This document shows, one piece after another, positions 3,481 to 42,014 of a stretch of 64,000 bases of DNA. Origin of the DNA: Daphnia pulex (Eukaryota > Arthropoda > Branchiopoda > Diplostraca > Daphniidae); the NCBI RefSeq assembly GCF_021134715.1, contig NC_060023.1:7750001-7814000 (forward strand), written 5' to 3'. The position numbers were made by a program, and so were the translations under genes. Within the stretch, counting starts at the first letter, position 1; the number at the start of each line of letters is the position of its first letter. The notes below the pieces were generated by a model that was given only the letters and a program-made list of their open reading frames with translations, did no database searches and was not told the DNA's origin.

Positions 3481-3844
3481 TTTTTTCCTTGTAAAAAAAT
3501 TAATTATATAAATCAGCTCAAATCAATTTGAAAAAGTATAGCTAATGCCAATTCAGACTTAATATATTATAGCCAAGCGTTGTCACTCCAACTTGAATGT
3601 CTGGTGGGCACTGAGGCAGAAACAAAATTTTCTAGAATAACATGTGGTTGTCAAATTGATAAACTAGATATCGATTAGAGCTATTAATAAATTATATTTA
3701 TCCTCAAGCAAAGGTTGATAAATGATGTTCACGGCCAATCCCGTAACAATACGACAAATTTCGAAACAATAAATGTAAACACCAAACAGAAAAACAATCC
3801 AATCTCAGAAAAACACACTTTACACAGCATCGAAACGTTTTGAC

Positions 3845-5105
3845 GAAAATAGTGCTGCAAAACCATATACTGAAGCTCCGTAGGTAAACATTCACAGGGG
3901 AGTTGGTGACTTCTAATTACTTCAGCTGCGATGCAAGATAACGGACGAACGCCCTCTAAGAAAGTGTCCATCAGCTTGCATAACTTTTCATTTGGGTATT
4001 TTTGAGGGAAATATTTGAGGAAATCCAATGCTAGATTGTCATCAAGATCGACTTGATCTGCATGAAACCGTCCGTCCAAAAATTGTTGTACAATCGAAGT
4101 GAACTTCTCCGCGCAAGCTGGGTAATTCGAGGATGTCCAAAAAACAAAAAAAAATCGTTCTTTACTTGCAAGCAGGTGAAGCGGGCTGCGCCGATGTTGA
4201 TCGACAGCGTTGGGATTCGATCCCGCTTCCAACAACAACTTTATCAGCTTGAAATCGTTCGGGAGTCCTATGTAAGCTTCGCAAGCTTTCAGCAGTAAGT
4301 TTGGTCTTTAATTGATCCACTCGTTCTCATAGTTAATAATATGGGTTTCAAACTGATACTTCAAGTTGCTGCTCTGATGATCTGATTTTGGAATTAACAC
4401 AAGCAGTTCGAGAAGAACCAAAATCAGTTTTGAAATTTCTTCTAACTTTACGGCTTTAGGTTTGATCTTCAAATGTGAATTCATGTTCATTTCTTTACTG
4501 GGAGCGTGATCGCGAACTTTTTCTTGGTAAACGAGAGAGAAAACCAGAGAAGTCATCAAATGGTCGAATGTCAATACTGTAGCCAGTTCGGTTCGATGTT
4601 GTGGGTCCCTCAGGGTGTTGAAGAATTCGGTGAACGTTGAGTGTACGACATCGTGAAAATTCGATGGCTTGAGGACTAGTCCTTCAAAAAATTCTGTTGT
4701 GCCGAAGAGCTCAAAAAGGATAAGAGATACGACAAATGAGCGGGGACGAGTCAACTCGCGTGTGTTCCATTCATAAAGAGCGAATCGGAACAAGTTATTG
4801 ACGAAAAAACAGTCCGGAAAAGAGTTGTGCTTGCAATGAATACGTCAATAAGCGAAAAACGCGTTAGTTCTCCATCTTTCTGCCTTTTGGGGACACAAAA
4901 TAAACAGTTCTTCAACACTTTGGAATTCGCGTAAGTTTCGAAAAACAAACGTTTCCCATTCAGCTTTTGGAAAGTTGGTCTTGGCAATTTGATGTTTTTC
5001 TCGCAAACTTGCGGCTTCATACCAACACACCCATGCATATTTTCTAAAATCCGGCTTTGCTTGGAAGACGAAAGCTGCACCGAAGAGCTCTAATACTTCA
5101 ATATA
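3845..5105 (-). pseudogene. FEM1-like pseudogene, copy 2 (C-terminal three quarters)
   Basis: Continuous minus-strand frame homologous to the intact FEM1-like protein from VLELFGAAFVFQAK near 5100 to PLSCIAAEVIRSHQLPCECL and MVLQH near 3850. Only two in-frame stops break it: a TGA at 4847-4845 and a TAA at 4310-4308, where the first copy has CAA (Gln). No frameshift is seen, so decay is recent. The ankyrin segment LLEAGSNPNAVDQHRRSPLH is well kept. Homology starts abruptly at about 5105, exactly where the N-terminal quarter should join. That quarter lies 0.7 kb away on the opposite strand (5769-6107), which indicates an inversion. Confidence 0.8.
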
Positions 5106-5768
5106 ACTTTCATTTCAAAAATAACTGTTATATGTGGATGGCAACTTGCAAGCCATCTCATTAAAAAAAGGTCATTGTAAAGGCTAAAAGGATAAGTAAT
5201 TTGTCGAGTTATTTGATTTAAAAAAACGTTTAACTGTTTTCTATTAAAAATCGCTCTTCTATCAATTTGGAATTCATAGTGAAGAGCTCGCAACAGCAAT
5301 GCTAAATCGAAGCGCGAGTGGAAGACGAACAAAAGAGGAACAGTGAACAAAGCCGAAGCAAATCTATGATTCTGCACCATTATTGCACTGTTCTGCCATT
5401 AATTGTAAAAATTATTATCTCTCTCAAATTATTTCTCAAACGAGACGAATATAATGCTGGTCTTCCTGATGCTACGGCCATGCCCTCTGATACGACAAAC
5501 TGACAAAGTCACAATACCGAAATACGGAAATAATGAACATTGCTGAATATTATTTGTTATAAAAGATTTTAAATCGGTTAAAATTGGAAAAAAATATTTT
5601 AAATTTTTAAGATTGGTCGGGCTTTGTTTTAATTTTTCATCAATTCAGCAGGTATTCCTTTTTGTAATTCTTAATTGTATGTGTTCTAACAATTTTACTT
5701 CTCTGAACAGTACAGACTGGGTACAGAGGGTCTCAACTACCCAAAGCACGAGAAGTAAGAAGAAGATC

Positions 5769-6107
5769 ATGGCTGATAAAACAAAAGCTGAGGAAGAAAT
5801 CCCACTTGAATGTGAGGAAAATATTAATCCCTGTAAAAAAAGGAAGATGAACCCTCTTCTGCTTGATGTTGGCTGTGCTAAGTTAAAGATCAAACCAAGA
5901 AAAAACGCGACAACTGGGAAATTCTTGCTGCGTCAGTTAAGAAGATTTGTAGGTTTCCCAGCCTCATTTACAGCAGCTCTTCTAGACCACATAATTAATG
6001 GTCTTGCCCTAAACTACCCACATAACCAGGTTATGATGAAGAAAATGAAGACAAATAACCCAGAATGTCTGATTATACCACCAAAAATGGATCCAGAGAA
6101 GTGCTAA
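5769..6107 (+). pseudogene. FEM1-like N-terminal fragment, inverted partner of copy 2
   Basis: Plus-strand open frame of 112 codons starting MADKTKAEEEIPLECEENIN and ending PPKMDPEKC followed by TAA. It aligns with the intact copy's N-terminus from MATKTKAEEDICEE to PPNIDREQ, including the shared 5' leader (AGAGGGTCT before the start). The homology ends just where copy 2 begins on the other strand. An alternative is an independent fragment that happens to stop at the same point; the exact complementarity of the two halves makes a single 1-kb inversion the simpler reading. Confidence 0.75.
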
Positions 6108-8240
6108 AAACAAAAGTGAAGTACAAGGCAACACTAGTCCCTCCCAGGGTTAGTAATCATTGATCACTAACATCACTGATCAACTAATTTGAAATGATAA
6201 CTTGCAAGGAAGAAGGCTGCCCTTTGCGATGAACTAGGTTTGATATCAGTTAAAGGTTCAGCTGGTTCAAAGAAAGAGATAAGAGTGCTGCTGTTTCCAT
6301 CACTTGTCAACCCGGCCGTATTTTTCTCAGAGGAAACCTAAGCTGTCTGTATCCTTTATAGTTTAGTTTATAGTTTAAGGTTTAGTATACCTGCTAAAAA
6401 TGCCAAGTCATTGGGGAAATGTCACTTTAAACAAGTTGTTTTAAAACAGAGGAGGATTCTAGAATAGAAAGACTAGATGTTTTCGGGAAAAGCCTCCCTC
6501 TTTCTAAAAGTGTTAGAAACCGTGGGCATAATTTTGTCAATTATGTCAGCGTTCAGCTCTTCCATATAATGAAATTACCCACCGTTCTTTCGTCCTTGAA
6601 TTTCTCAATGAACAAGAATCTCTATATTTTTCGCCAGTAGAATATCCCCAATATTACCGTAAAAAATGAGGAAGATGAAGGCGTAAGGTAACAAATAGAT
6701 CTATTTAATCACTAATGAATTGTATTGGTCTATAAACTGGTATCTTTGTTTTCCAAACAGGGTATGCGGTAATGAGGTGTCAAGTTTAGAAATAGGACTC
6801 GGACCATCAGAGGCAAGGATGTAAAGAGAAGTTAAATACAAAACAGAAGAATTTTATTTAAAAATGGTAAATTCGTTGTAAAAGAACGAGATTTAACCAA
6901 AGAAGAAAGAAAATTTATTTTTTTTACTTGCTTATAATTTCATTGAATATCTAGAATATTGAGAACACTTTCATGTGAAGCTTCATAAATTATTTAAATT
7001 TAAATTTATTTATCTTGAATTTAACATACAGAAAAAATAGATCGACTTTGATCGTATGTTTGGTCTATATGATTACTGTAGAACAACCCTCTTGGCTCGG
7101 TTTACCCCAAGGAAGTGGTAGACGACAACTGACTTATTGCCTTAATGGGCCCCATTTCTCCAAGTAAACCCTCTAGCGTTAAATAGGGAAACAGAAGTTA
7201 AATAGGGACAATTCACTGTGACATCTAGGAGTAATATATGAACACAGAATGGGAAATATAGCAGCTGCGGGAAATGCAAGTTTCAAAAATCGGTGATCTT
7301 ACAGCACACGTTTCGTTATGAAGGAATATGTATAAAAAAATTAGTGTAAATGCTCTAACACTGAAGTATATCATTTTTTCTACAAAAATTTGGGCATTAA
7401 CATGAATTTTCATATTCATTAACATGGATATGAAATAGGTTTGCAACCGATAAACAGGATACATAGATATATTTCTAGCATATTAAAGGTCTCATTATTT
7501 TGACTACAACCCTACTAGCATACGTACGTCAATAGGACGTTTCAAAGTCGTCCGCTTTGTTTGAGCTGGACATCCAAGCCAGACGTCATTTTTCATTGTT
7601 TTGTACGTCAAAATGTCCTCTTCAATGAACGTCCAAACTGGTAATCGATTTGGTGTCCGAAAATGAACGTCAAATGGATGTCAAACAAAGAAATAAAAGA
7701 ATTGGAGAAAAGAATTTCCCTCTACGAGTGCCGAACCTTATCCTTCACGCATACTAACCAAACGCTCTAATTATTATACCATTTGACCTGATAAACAATT
7801 ACAATTTTATGTATTAATTTTACAAATCCTACACACTATTAGAATAAAAATTTTTTACGACTCCATAGTTTTAATTTTGAAAATCCTTGGAAATCGCAGC
7901 AATCGGTTGGTGACAAATCATAATCAAAAGAATTGAGTAGCGAAGACAGTGATTTTGTACTAGACAATAACCTTTACCAAGAGCGACCAAAAATCAGAAA
8001 TTGAAGTTTCAAAACCCTTCGTTCCTTTCCTGCAATCGTCCGATAAGTAGGCTACGACCCGAGAAAAGAATCATGTCCCTATGTATAGCCTTTATAAGCT
8101 TTTATAAAATATATTTTTTTAAAATTACCAATTTGAATTATATAGTCGGCTGGACAAATATATCGACTACAAGGACGACGGCCACCCAGGAAGGTATCGA
8201 CGATGCCGAAAATCCTGAGAGAGTACGGAGTCAAAGCCTG
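6108..8240. other. Intergenic, AT-rich, no gene seen
   Basis: No supported coding sequence; the open frame at 7225-7464 has no recognisable features. Two things are visible: a dispersed repeat at about 6405-6517 that recurs at 35138-35250, and a cluster of ACGTC motifs at 7520-7690. Confidence 0.45.
6405..6517. repeat. Dispersed repeat, shared with 35138-35250
   Basis: About 113 bases starting near GTCATTGGGGAAATGTCACT and ending near CTTTCTAAAAGTGTT match a second copy at 35138-35250 with a few substitutions. No open frame or terminal repeats are obvious. Confidence 0.7.
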
Positions 8241-23197: not shown

Positions 23198-23797
23198 ATA
23201 GAGCTTTTTCCATTTGGTTCGTGTAAGTAGAGGGAAAAGTCGTGCGGCTAGTCGACTAGTGCGCACCATGGCGGGGGATAGCCGAAACTTGCTGCAGACT
23301 TTGCTTGATCCGAACAATACCCACCGTAAGGCCATGTACTGTAACCTGTGAGGCTGTCAGCACTCAGCAGCAAAAGTGAAACCTGTTTTATTTCTTAAGT
23401 GTTTAAAATGACAAAAGCTTTTTGTTTGATATGTTCAACTTATGAAAAAAAGAGATCGCCGAAGTTTTTTCAAAGTGCCAGAATGCAACATTAACACTAA
23501 TTCAATTGAAAAAGAACTCATTTCACTTTGAAAAAACTTCGGCGATATCTTTTTTTTCATAAGTTGAACATATCAAACAAAAAGCTGTTACCATTTTAAA
23601 CACTTAAGACATAAAACAGGTTTCACTTTTGCTGCTGACAGCCTGACAGGTTACAGTACATGGCCTTACGGTGGGTATTGTTCGGATCAAGCAAAGTCTG
23701 CAGCAAGTTTCGGCTATCCCCCGCCATGGTGCGCACTAGTCGACTAGCCGCACGACTTTTCCCTCTACTTACACGAACCAAATGGAAAAAGCTCTAT
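23198..23797. repeat. 600-base near-perfect inverted repeat (hairpin)
   Basis: Left arm 23198-23477 and right arm 23524-23797 are reverse complements with only a few mismatches and one 7-base indel (an extra ACTCAGC in the left arm). They are separated by a 46-base loop. Outer ends read ATAGAGCTTTTTCC and its complement. No obvious target-site duplication or open frame. It could be a foldback or MITE-like element, or a locus that yields long double-stranded RNA if transcribed. Confidence 0.9.
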
Positions 23798-27990: not shown

Positions 27991-28004
27991 CGAACACAAG
28001 TCAC

Positions 28005-28300
28005 AGAAATACACACTTTATGCAACACTCGAGTAGCATCGAAACTTTTAAACGGCACTAGTGTTGTTTGTTCTTTCAATGAAGCGTCACAGGTAGACAT
28101 TCACAGTAGTGTTGATGTCTTCGAATTTAAAACGATGTAAACACCGAGGAAAACAATCCAATGTCAGAAATACACACTTTATGCAACACTCGAGGAGCAT
28201 CGAAACTTTTAAACGGCACTAGTGTTGTTTGTTCTTTCAATGAAGCGTCACAGGTAGACATTCACAGAAGTGTTCATGTCTTCGAATTTAAAACGATGGT
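28005..28300 (-). repeat. Tandem duplication of FEM1-like 3' flank
   Basis: Two nearly identical blocks (about 28005-28139 and 28166-28300, period 161) share CACTTTATGCAACACTCGAG and GAAGCGTCACAGGTAGACAT. A diverged version of the same sequence lies at about 3775-3890, in the tail of FEM1-like copy 2, so the unit comes from the gene's 3' region. Confidence 0.75.
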
Positions 28301-29923
28301 CTAGCAGTATTGAAACGAACTGTGTTGGAGAACCATAGACTGAAGCGTCACAGGTAAATCTTCACACGGGAGGTTATGCTTTCGGACGATTTTAGCTGCG
28401 ATGCAAGATAACGGAAGAACGCCCTGCAAGTAACTGTCCATCAGCTTGCGTAACTTGTCATTGGGGTATTGCTGAGGGAAGTACTTTATGCAATCCAAAG
28501 CAGCGTTTCCGCGAAGATCGGTTTGATCCTTGTGAAATTCTCCATCAAAAAATGTTTGGACGATAATGGTGAATCTTGCAGCATGCTTCTCATAATCAGA
28601 ACTCCAAAAAGGATGGAAGAATACTTCTCTACTTGCGAGTACGTGGAGGGGGCTGCGCCCATGTTGATCTACGGCGTTGGGGTCTCCACCGGTCTCCAGT
28701 AAGAGCATAATGAAGTCAAAGTCTTCTTCAAATCCTCTGTAGTCCTCGGATGCCCTCAGCAAGAGTGTTGATTGTTTTTTTTTCAAGGTGTTATTTTCAA
28801 AATTGATAGTGTAGCTTTCAAGATGGTTCTTCAATTTTTCCCTCTCAGCTTCCGATTTGGGCATCGATACCAGCAATTTAATAAGAATAAGAATCAGCTG
28901 TGAAATTTCTTCAAGCTTGTCGGCTTTTGATTTGATCGTATAATCTTTGATTTTGATTTGATCATTTCGAGCGTCTTTGTGAACTTTCACCTGGTATACG
29001 AAAGAGAAAACCAGGGCAGTCATTAAGTGGTCGATTGTCAATACTGTAGCCAGTTCGGTTTCAATCCGTTGTGGGTCCCAGCCCCACAGCCTCAGGGTGT
29101 TGAAGAATTCGGTGAACGATGAATGTACGACATCTTCCATGTTCGTTTCATTTTTGACCAGTTGATCCAAAAAGTCTGCCTTCCCAAAGAGCTCAAAAAG
29201 CTGGAGGGATATGGTGAAAGCGCGGTGACGAGGTACGTTGCGGTCCGCCCATCCTTGAAGAGCGAATTTGAACAAATTGTTGACGAAAAAACTGTCCGGG
29301 TGGCAGTTATACTTGTTGGAAATACGATGACAAGTACATAACGCGTGGATTTTCCATCTTTCTCCCCTTTGTGGGAACAAAACAAAAAGTTCTTCCATAT
29401 TTCGAAATTCACTTACATTTCCGAAAAGAAGCGTTTCCAATTCAGATTGAGGCAAGCTGATTTTCTTAATTCGATACTTGTCTCGCAACATGGTGGCTTC
29501 ATGCCAACAAATCCATCCAAATTTTCGAAAGTCGGTTTTAGCTTGAAAAACAAAGGCAGCACCGAAGAGCTCTAGTACGTCAATTAGCTGTTCTCGATCG
29601 ATGTTAGGTGGTAGGATCAAACATTTTGGGGTTTTTTTCTTTTTTTCCATAACGTGTACACGCGGGAACTTTCTAAGGATGACTTCCACAACGTGGTCTA
29701 GAATGGCGGCTGAAAATTCGACCGGAAATTTTACATATCTCTTCAGTTCACTCAACAAAAAGATGATGGTTGTTTTGACGTCAAATCCTTCCTCGACCAA
29801 GTACTTCAAGTTTGCCACATTCTTGTTTTCATCTTTAAGCAGAAGAGTAAAAGTCTTCCTTTTCTTAGGGAAATTACTATGTTCTTCACATATATCTTCC
29901 TCGGCTTTGGTTTTAGTCGCCAT
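28301..29923 (-). CDS. FEM1-like protein lacking the N-terminal ankyrin domain (intact copy)
   Basis: A single 540-codon exon from the ATG at 29923 (MATKTKAEEDICEE) to 28301. It aligns by eye with the C-terminal half of FEM1 proteins, the substrate receptors of CUL2 ubiquitin ligases. There is a helical middle (LIDVLELFGAAFVFQAK about residue 110-125, then ELFVLFPQRGERW and LFKFALQGWADR). Two ankyrin-type segments follow (LLETGGDPNAVDQHGRSPLH), and the FEM1 C-terminal box PLSCIAAKIVRKHNLPCEDL. The seven N-terminal ankyrin repeats that read C-degrons in FEM1 are absent and replaced by about 100 lysine-rich residues. A conserved acceptor ATTACAG then AGGGTCTGC lies upstream, so a 5' exon exists. 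Three decayed copies occur nearby. Function in ubiquitination is inference. Confidence 0.75.
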   Translation of the reverse strand: MATKTKAEEDICEEHSNFPKKRKTFTLLLKDENKNVANLKYLVEEGFDVKTTIIFLLSELKRYVKFPVEFSAAILDHVVEVILRKFPRVHVMEKKKKTPKCLILPPNIDREQLIDVLELFGAAFVFQAKTDFRKFGWICWHEATMLRDKYRIKKISLPQSELETLLFGNVSEFRNMEELFVLFPQRGERWKIHALCTCHRISNKYNCHPDSFFVNNLFKFALQGWADRNVPRHRAFTISLQLFELFGKADFLDQLVKNETNMEDVVHSSFTEFFNTLRLWGWDPQRIETELATVLTIDHLMTALVFSFVYQVKVHKDARNDQIKIKDYTIKSKADKLEEISQLILILIKLLVSMPKSEAEREKLKNHLESYTINFENNTLKKKQSTLLLRASEDYRGFEEDFDFIMLLLETGGDPNAVDQHGRSPLHVLASREVFFHPFWSSDYEKHAARFTIIVQTFFDGEFHKDQTDLRGNAALDCIKYFPQQYPNDKLRKLMDSYLQGVLPLSCIAAKIVRKHNLPCEDLPVTLQSMVLQHSSFQYC

Positions 29924-30029
29924 GATTCCATGTGCTTTGGGTTGAGCAGACCCTCTGTAATGAAGCGTGTTCTGAGAAATACAAATTTTAGTATGCATGT
30001 AATGAAGAGTTTCATGCAATGGATACCTT

Positions 30030-30647
30030 CTTTAATATTTGATGGAAAGATAAAACAAATCCCTGCTGGATGGAAGATCAATTGGAATCAGTCTTCAAAT
30101 ACCGTAGGAAAAGAACTTGATTCTCCTAAAACTTTTACAAAAACCTTATTGTTTAAACTGTTATTTTTATACAAAATTAGGAGAGAAAAAAGGTTTACCT
30201 TTTTGATGTTAGAAGAAACAAATATTCAGTAGGAACAAATCCCAGAGCTATGTGGAAGACAAATTGGAAGCAGTCTTCAAAATGGCGGGAAATGAACTTG
30301 ATTCTTCTACCAATTTTAGCAAAACCCAGGTTAGTAATTGTACTACATAATTAGAAAATAGAGGCTTACCGTGTTGAAGTAAGAAGAAAACAATTCTTAA
30401 GTGGAAAAAGTTAAAACTTTACGAAATTTCAACTAAGATTCTTGAGCTCTGATTGACGATGTCTGCCTGGCACAAGTACGAGAAACTTTCTAACGGTTGT
30501 TTTCTCCCTGTTACATACTAACACTCTAACAGGCCGAAGTCCCCCTGGTGGCTGAATTTGAATTTTAAATTTTAACCGTTGCCAAATTATTTATTATTTA
30601 GCAATTTAAACGTTTTTTCACTGTTTTTTTTTTCAGAGGTGCTCTCG
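30030..30647. other. Intergenic, upstream of the FEM1-like gene
   Basis: Contains short imperfect repeats: AATTGGAA(T/G)CAGTCTTCAAA occurs twice, near 30078 and 30263. Likely 5' flank of the minus-strand FEM1-like gene; no gene supported. Confidence 0.35.
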
Positions 30648-31385: not shown

Positions 31386-31949
31386 TGATTGTTTGCTCAT
31401 AAATTTTGTGGGCGGCTTTCGTTTGTCATTTGTTTTGATTTTATGTTGTGCTTTTTTATTGTGACATATATATGAGCTGTTTTATTATGAAGAACGGGTG
31501 TAACTACATTTACTAGTTCTAATTAATTCATTTTAATTAATTCATTTACTAGTAAATTAATTACTAGTTTTTTGTCGGCAAAAATGGTGTTGGAAAAACG
31601 ACGTTGTTAAATGTCCCGGATTAAAAACGGACTAAAGCAGTATCTCATTTCCGAAGCGGAAGAGGGGAAGCCATCATTTTTTTCTCTCTAACTGTTTATT
31701 GATTCGCTTAATATGGTTTTTTAACAATAACAATAGGCCTTTACACTGTAGATGATTGCCTTTGCCTCTGTATTAATTTCACGCAGTCAAAGATGTGTCA
31801 TTTGTTTATTTTTCTTTAAACGAATTTTCAACCATATTTAAGAATATATAATAGACATATAATAGACATCAATCAATTAATTAAACCATTAATAAAACCA
31901 AATAAAAGAGAAAAGAAAACTGACTTGTGTCAGACTGGTCACGGGTACA
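31386..31949. other. Intergenic, no gene seen
   Basis: AT-rich. A short motif TATAATAGACATCAATCA near 31845-31880 also occurs near 2705-2735, beside the carbonic anhydrase fragment. Confidence 0.4.
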
Positions 31950-40167: not shown

Positions 40168-40740
40168 CGAGAACGCGCGGCGTAACGGAGCGCAACGTGT
40201 AAAATTTACGTGCTTTATAAAGATTTCGCCCTTTATGGGACCATGCCACAATTCCTTTGTACTTTGCACTTTAAAACCGCCGTGCTGTCGCTAGTGTAAA
40301 AGAATCTTTTAGTAATCAGTCAACGTGAAACTCATGTTCTGGCATATAGCCGAAAACGTTCCGCTCCGGAATGTATAACATTAACTTTATGCGAAGGCAT
40401 AACATGCTAACATGAGCATTTTTCCTTGCATTTTGCACAGCCAGTTTAAAAATGGTTTTGTTTTACGTAAACTGTCAATTATAATGTTATTTCGTTTGTG
40501 ACTGTGATGGTTATTTTTGCGTATTTTTGTTTTTTACACGCCCATTCCTCAAGAACGTCACTTTCTAATACGCCTACTAGGTCCATTTAAATCAACTTGT
40601 AGTTACTCCTCTGCTGATAGAAGAGGTCCTAATCAAAAGATCATCAGCTATTCTGTTTATGGCAACTTTTCAGGGCATGATCACATAAAAAAAATATATT
40701 CTTCCATTTAAAGACCCCCTTAAATTGATACCCTCGATAT
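40168..40740 (+). pseudogene. Duplicate of exon 1 and promoter of the glycosyltransferase-like gene
   Basis: Matches 14438-15021. The leader CGAGAACG...TAACGGAGCGCAA is kept, then RLLGPFKSTCSYS, ADRRGPNQKIISYSVYGNF and SGHDHIKK in a partly open frame, with shifts around the membrane anchor and after HIKK. Only exon 1 is present; the sequence after the hairpin element (41012 on) matches the start of the parental intron briefly and then diverges. Dead fragment. Confidence 0.75.
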
Positions 40741-41007
40741 GGGGCTCTTCGGGATCTGTTTTATTTAGCCGATTTATCTGGCAACGCAGCATGGCGCCAG
40801 TCTTTTTTGAGGGAAGAACGGGGAGAAGAGGGAGAATGGGACGAGTGGGAGGGAGGAGGGCGTACGAAAAAAAAGGGGACCCACGTTTCCTCTTCTCCCC
40901 CATTCGTCCCATTCTCCCTCTTCTCCCCGTTCTTCCCTCAAAAAAGACTGGCGCCATGCTGCGTTGCCAGATAAATCGGCTAAATAAAACAGATCCCGAA
41001 GAGCCCC
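40741..41007. mobile_element. 267-base hairpin MITE with 104-base perfect arms
   Basis: Starts GGGGCTCTTCGGGATCTG and ends with its exact complement. The arms are identical for 104 bases, with a 59-base centre. Flanked on both sides by ATAT (TA or ATAT duplication). The parental sequence at 15007-15024 lacks the element, so this is a filled site with its empty counterpart in the same window. No coding capacity; the open frames across it are artefacts of the palindrome. Confidence 0.9.
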
Positions 41008-41011
41008 ATAT

Positions 41012-42014
41012 CCAGGGAAATATACATAATTTTTGCTATTTGGTAAAAAAATATGTTCACGTTGCGGGTGTGTTTCAGAAAATTGTTGCTATGGATCATA
41101 ACCTAGCTGTGTTTAGCCCTACAGACTTAAATAATCAATGCCTATGCTATGATCCCTACAAAGTAATTCACTTTGCGTATCGAAAAATTATGTTTCTTGA
41201 AAAAAAATTTTGTATTAATTTTTGTTTTCCTAAATTTTAAAAGTTTCTGCAACCTTTGGCATAGTTATCAACCATTATCAAGATATCAACAATCTGGAGC
41301 CTCTGATTTTTTCCTAAATTTACAAGATTTATTATGATTATTGAAATTTAATAACGATTAAAATAGTGAGACAATAAAACGACTTACCTAAAACATCATG
41401 ACTTTCATCACAAAAATTATGTAAGATGTTTTTTTCATTCAAAACTTATTCGAGAACCCTTTCGATAAGTTTTTCAAACCGCAATCAAGTAGAATCCATC
41501 TCCATCTCTTGATGGATAAAAGAAACATAAAATAGATTTCGGATTTCTTCACAATTTCTTTCTAAACACCGTCAGATGAAAACCCCCAAAAATTGAGATT
41601 TTTAGATAAATAATTTACAGAAGCATTTTTGTTCATTTTAATTAACAAATTATTGTTTTTTTCGTATTTACCCTTTAGTGTAACTTTCTCCCGTTCGAAG
41701 CGCTGTAGGTAAAATACGGATTTACAGAAGGAGAACTGAAGAAGGCCAGAAGCTGTGTTCGTGGGGTAGCTAATTGTAATTAAACACAAATTCATGGAAA
41801 AGCTTTAAAAATATTGGCGAACCAGGCCGTCCTTGGGTTTGATTGACGTCCATTTACAACCATTCCATCTTCGAAATAGTGATTCTCTTAATGTCGACGT
41901 CGGTGGCTTGAATCGGTAAGCACTAAGCAATTGCCAGGACTGCATTTTCATGTGTGGTATCCATTAACTCTCTATTGACTCAGTATTTTGTTTTTTTCTT
42001 TTTTCTAGTTCATC
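41012..42014. other. Intergenic, with ariadne-2 5' untranslated exon
   Basis: Mostly AT-rich with no gene. A likely leader exon of ariadne-2 ends at 41915 (GAATCG then GTAAGC), and its acceptor TTTTCTAG at 42001-42008 precedes the start codon by six bases. Confidence 0.5.

Follow-up and report, generated by a model that had tools for sequence, protein, structure and literature searches.

The window analysed here is a stretch of 64,000 bp of the Daphnia pulex genome (C7:7750001-7814000 in the one assembly used, which has 133,188,837 bases in 13 contigs) and contains members of a family of FEM1-like genes. The intact paralogue, copy 3 (P0001; 28301-29923, minus strand), was used as reference; its open reading frame occupies 28301-30019 on the minus strand, with the ATG of Met residue 33 at 29923. 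In a tblastn search with P0001, copy 2 was found as two matches on opposite strands, one on the minus strand (5111-3852, residues 143-566, 57.5% identity) and one on the plus strand (5766-6101, residues 32-144, 46.6% identity), and the description of this locus in an earlier, sequence-only reading as a FEM1-like gene in two opposite-strand halves was thereby borne out. The C-terminal half (C-half; 3852-5102, minus strand, P0001 residues 146-566) is a single tblastn match in one frame. It contains no frameshift, and the two nonsense codons seen previously, which align to P0001 residues 231 and 414, are the only interruptions of its frame. The half reads ...ESYIEVLELFGAA and starts abruptly, as had been stated, but not exactly where the boundary had been placed (about 5105): codon by codon, the homology begins 3 bp further inside, with the ATT for Ile146 at 5102-5100. 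The N-terminal half (N-half; 5769-6101 from its ATG, plus strand, P0001 residues 33-144) contains no stop, and its translation ends with PPKMDPEKC, as reported, the frame continuing past 6101 to a TAA at 6105-6107, which lies within the flanking sequence E-right described below.

Because the C-half has two stops and has lost its front, leaving it with neither a start nor a promoter, it is, as judged by its sequence, a pseudogene. The frame of the N-half is open over 112 codons, a length that, by our estimate, chance could give at the stop density of the C-half; since such openness is expectable by chance, the N-half is not called a gene. Copy 1 (1196-2693), a family member on the same minus strand as the C-half, is degenerate: it carries two stops and lacks much of its N-domain. 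The idea that copy 1 is a processed pseudogene, based on a resemblance between 2699-2742 and 31842-31886 and judged by eye only, was dropped because copy 1 has kept an acceptor-like sequence at this point and because in copy 3 dispersed repeats separate the two stretches. Private changes by codon position were 50:35:58 in the C-half, 27:24:57 in P0001 and 72:54:66 in copy 1 (contrast of the C-half with P0001, p = 0.057; with copy 1, p = 0.25). This pattern gives a hint of relaxed constraint in the C-half, without a clear difference from P0001 or copy 1. The proposal that the break is recent was not confirmed, its support being limited to the presence of two stops and the lack of a frameshift.

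At E ≤ 0.001 the genome contains at least 79 matches to P0001 (76 of 188 candidates scored). Among the extracted copies of nearly full length, L002-L005 and L012 have a sole stop, which is located 5' of the start codon. FEM1 proteins are CUL2 substrate receptors, which combine CUL2/elongin binding with degron recognition, and they carry an N-terminal ankyrin-repeat array. Positions 97-533 of a seven-member family profile aligned in one stretch with residues 225-616 of the 617 residues of FEM1C (8pql_H; E 8.1e-28), so that colinearity extends over the C-terminal region through the end of FEM1. With FEM1B (8wqa_D) the best profile stretch was 346-533. Several designed or other ankyrins ranked above FEM1C in the profile comparison, each with one short repeat as its best stretch. 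Since the profile aligns with FEM1C in one stretch, the C-terminal two thirds can fairly be called 'FEM1-like'; the name denotes a relative, FEM1 identity itself being a candidate assignment. The family thus resembles FEM1 proteins in the colinear C-terminal region and differs from them in the N half: no N-terminal ankyrin-repeat array was found in P0001, which gave no Pfam ankyrin match above the cut-off and, in its N half, none at E ≤ 10. A single weak ankyrin repeat was seen in a distant member, L017, at 75-99. Residues 33-57 of P0001 seem, by eye in the alignments, to be better conserved among copies than residues 58-143, which could reflect constraint, conversion or diversifying selection. 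Immediately downstream of P0001 there is a 134-bp tandem duplication (28004-28137 and 28165-28298, 97.8%), and upstream of it a tandem repeat of about 180 bp (30054-30409, 72% between units) that other family copies share. Among the titles listed in searches of the Daphnia literature none concerned this FEM1-like family, an absence that we claim for these searches only.

The ends of the two halves of copy 2 were compared at the DNA level with eight paralogues, recording the last paralogue base matched by the N-half and the first matched by the C-half. In four of the eight, which closely resemble each other, the halves meet with 3 bp missing (L002 and L004, both 405/409; L006, 435/439; L013, 432/436). 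The gap was 7 bp in L010 (377/385) and 24 bp in L018 (477/502), and no fit was obtained with L012 (232/330), whose N region is short. Overlap of the halves, which would have spoken for two separate insertions, is in general absent, the exception being 10 bp in the alignment with P0001 (436/427). If two fragments of a gene of about 1.7 kb were cut independently, we estimate that their ends would fall within 10 bp of each other about 1% of the time.

Both halves are nearest to P0001 by identity among the near-full-length copies: for the N-half, identity is 52% with P0001 and at most 41% with six others (100 shared columns); for the C-half, the values are 57.9% and, again with six others, at most 52.3% (363 columns). 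The expectation that no other paralogue would be closer holds to this extent, but with exceptions. Two of these are partial copies. L020 equals P0001 in its closeness to the C-half (57.7% vs 57.0%, 298 columns); L014 has 12 N-half matches in only 20 columns, and for the C-half it reaches 57.6% vs 60.1% for P0001 (271 columns). Neither half was firmly joined to P0001 in maximum-likelihood trees, the N tree placing the N-half, P0001 and the long-branched L026 on one fork with support 52/49. A further exception concerns the leader DNA preceding the N-half, which is nearest to L060 (82% vs 66-77% for other copies). L060 was rejected as a sister copy retaining the unflipped order, its coding part being only 26-34% identical to the N-half. 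L020 also starts at residue 143; it was rejected as a sign of a recurrent break at this point because its own short N region continues in frame. The halves are complementary and most likely parts of one gene.

The N-half lies in a segment of about 626 bp, S (5479-6104, plus strand), which interrupts a repeated sequence, E. The left part of this sequence (E-left, 5434-5478) and its right part (E-right, 6105-6203, an extent given by the alignment with L051) are both on the plus strand. In the repeats L050 and L051 the homologue of 5434-5478 leads straight into the homologue of 6105 onwards on the same strand. When the right flank alone was aligned with the stretch following E-left, it scored 60 in L051 and 46 in L050, the top scores among 1000 dinucleotide shuffles being 48 and 43, respectively. 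Searched genome-wide, a query in which the flanks were joined (5422-5478 plus 6105-6159, joint at query 56-57) hit four places. Two of the hits span the joint, namely C7:8178257-8178330 with 88% identity (query 13-86, E 6.6e-19) and C7:9575277-9575376 with 81% (query 13-112, E 8e-18); the remaining two are the window's own halves. A search with L051 itself gave five further places outside the window. Two of them, C7:8178202 and C7:10433271 (the second with 69% identity and E 1.3e-8), crossed the joint, and three stopped at or before it. The dinucleotide GC is present at both edges of S (5477-5478 and 6103-6104), both window pieces sharing query 56-57. The contiguity of the flanks at C7:8178257 and C7:9575277 shows that S interrupts older DNA, and it calls for one more breakpoint, the third, which falls at 5478/5479 and thus within the inversion proposed earlier.

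Within S, a piece of the family 5' flank (F2, 5484-5605, plus strand) is followed by the family leader (5619-5768, plus strand) and the N-half; the tandem repeats of about 180 bp found upstream of other copies were not found beside this leader. The homologue of F2 in L062, at 4714-4818, belongs to the upstream flank of the family: L062:4776-4841 has 16 further matching places, of which 14 are situated about 0.5-0.7 kb upstream of listed family copies, among these 14 window 30540-30596, upstream of P0001. Against five family flanks, L062:4700-5000 gave alignment scores of 83-113. Matched directly to the five flanks, window 5480-5618 gave weak scores of 42, 52, 46, 46 and 32 (highest shuffle scores 43, 46, 43, 41 and 41), all 100 shuffles being exceeded in only three of the five. 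Between the C-half and E-left lies a truncated dispersed repeat, F1 (5177-5413, minus strand), longer copies of which are present in L062 and L063. In L062 the reversed F1 (4434-4703) is followed after 10 bp by the homologue of 5484-5605, so that the relative orientation of F1 and the 5' flank there is opposite to that in the window. L062 is the sole witness of this order. An independent insertion of F1 is conceivable, since the identity of the window F1 is nearly the same with L062 (77%) as with L063 (76%).

The C-half and F1 are separated by 74 bp of filler (5103-5176), which the history favoured below does not account for. A genome search with 5100-5190 found only this sequence itself, and the filler showed no significant likeness to the N-domain (128 of 300 and 149 of 500 shuffles scored as high). 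One of its frames looked faintly ankyrin-like by eye, and it was considered whether the filler might be leftover native N-domain, which would mean overlap and hence two separate genes; the shuffles gave this no support. Self-comparison of 3500-6600 found no second copy of S, either inverted or direct, and therefore S moved or its original was lost. Six inverted pairs are present within 5050-6350, with 74-92% complementarity. As these pairs are only 12-19 nt long, it is unlikely that long inverted repeats at the breakpoints drove the event by recombination.

The locus has three present junctions, and each of the neighbourhoods that they break is unbroken in at least one relative: E in L050 and L051, F1 beside the 5' flank in L062 alone, and N beside C in the paralogues. 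New junctions combined with old neighbourhoods that are intact elsewhere are what a three-breakpoint inverted transposition, or a pair of nested inversions, is expected to leave. The three neighbourhoods yield one ancestral order on the minus strand, namely E - F1 - flank - leader - N - C. We consider an inverted transposition of S from copy 2 itself the probable, and best, explanation of the locus. The ancestor of copy 2 would have been a FEM1-like gene, colinear and on the minus strand; read in that direction, its surroundings and parts would have followed one another as E-right' - E-left' - F1 - 5' flank - leader - N-half - C-half. S, comprising 5' flank, leader and N-half, would have departed from between F1 and the C-half and been reinserted in inverted orientation between E-right and E-left, about 400 bp upstream, the 74-bp filler staying as a scar between F1 and the C-half. 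Two nested inversions could have had the same outcome, first of 5103-6104, which is essentially the event of the sequence-only reading, and then of 5103-5478 back again. The GC at the insertion edges and the 74-bp filler suggest faulty end-joining or template switching as the cause. We infer that S derives from copy 2 itself, in one step or two; the complementary ends and the identity ranks agree on this, while the trees give no firm grouping and the leader is nearest L060.

A single inversion of 5105-6104, as originally proposed, accounts for the opposite strands and rejoins the adjoining N and C ends, and that part of the proposal stands. Undoing a two-breakpoint inversion does not, however, restore all the broken neighbourhoods: the contiguity of E-left and E-right seen at C7:8178257 and C7:9575277 is left over and needs the additional breakpoint at 5478/5479, and the adjacency of F1 and 5' flank that L062 shows is not recovered. 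We regard the single inversion as very improbable; the case illustrates that a seemingly simple inversion can conceal a third breakpoint. Equally improbable is a history in which the front half was first duplicated in inverted orientation and the original one was then lost. It would have parallels on the same chromosome, where L060 and L061 bear inverted repeats inside family copies, but no inverted repeat was detected in the self-comparison of 3500-6600 (E ≤ 0.01), and the deletion that followed would need to coincide with the ends of the duplicated segment on both sides.

Alternatively, a 3'-truncated copy of another FEM1-like paralogue could have inserted independently into E, the N-half of copy 2 having been lost separately. 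S is indeed an insertion into E, and its start is close to where the conserved family flank begins on its 5' side; the affinity of its leader to L060, the lack of a firm grouping of the halves in the trees and the occurrence of close-set opposite-strand family fragments at other C7 loci would also fit. Such an origin requires, however, that the end points coincide to about 3 bp and, as a second coincidence, that F1 came to lie beside E and S although L062 has F1 beside the same flank; nor does it agree with P0001 being nearest by identity for both halves among the near-full-length copies. We think it unlikely, while giving it some weight. It is because of the leader, the near-equal F1 identities and the dependence on L062 for the order of F1 and flank that inverted transposition is rated as probable and independent insertion retains this weight.

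Large inverted repeats inside FEM1-like copies are present in L060 (C7:8866500-8876400; arms 4594-5380 and 5506-6278, 788 bp, 96%) and L061 (C7:10742000-10751900; arms 5107-5807 and 6322-7022, 701 bp, 99.3%), which indicates that inverted rearrangement is recurrent in the family. These copies, at 8.87 and 10.75 Mb of C7, are like copy 2 in family, chromosome and the possession of inverted intragenic segments; they differ in that their segment is duplicated, whereas copy 2 has a single flipped segment. It is doubtful, though imaginable, that replication-based fold-back rearrangement has a hotspot in the FEM1-like cluster on C7, where one mechanism would repeatedly give rise to palindromes, as in L060 and L061, and to flipped segments, as in copy 2, and would now and then release new short genes. 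If this were true, the 112-codon N-half frame with its partial 5' flank and leader would be an example of a released short gene.

Several other features of the family and the window were observed in passing. In L060, 6286-6412, after the palindrome, matches the 3' end of the family unit, and in L061 direct repeats (4595-4678 and 7618-7701, 77%) adjoin both ends of the family unit. Three family copies of equal match score at C7:10444637, 10452539 and 10460441, spaced exactly 7902 bp apart, form a young tandem array. L010 (C7:8400034) and L011 (C7:8389574), 10,460 bp apart, are identical over 4530 bp, for which a very recent duplication, conversion and an assembly duplicate are alternative explanations. 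On C12, FEM1-like C-terminal pieces (query 367-568 each) lie on opposite strands about 340 bp apart (975800-976453, minus; 976793-977446, plus). Window 40731-41017 (88%) and 23198-23797 (90%) each match their own reverse complement and are thus palindromic repeats.

Inverted transposition and nested inversions are classes of local genome rearrangement. Copy 2 would be one more pseudogene in a fast-turning FEM1-like cluster, and the event a neat yet ordinary bit of wreckage in a gene cluster, a little more involved than the simple flip proposed at first. Dispersed paralogues and repeats serve as witnesses of each broken neighbourhood and allow a finer reading than the affected sequence alone permits. 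With the class of inverted transpositions copy 2 shares a flipped move over a short distance, three breakpoints and a gene split into opposite-strand parts. The event itself is no different from others of the class; what is particular is its reconstruction from paralogous empty sites.
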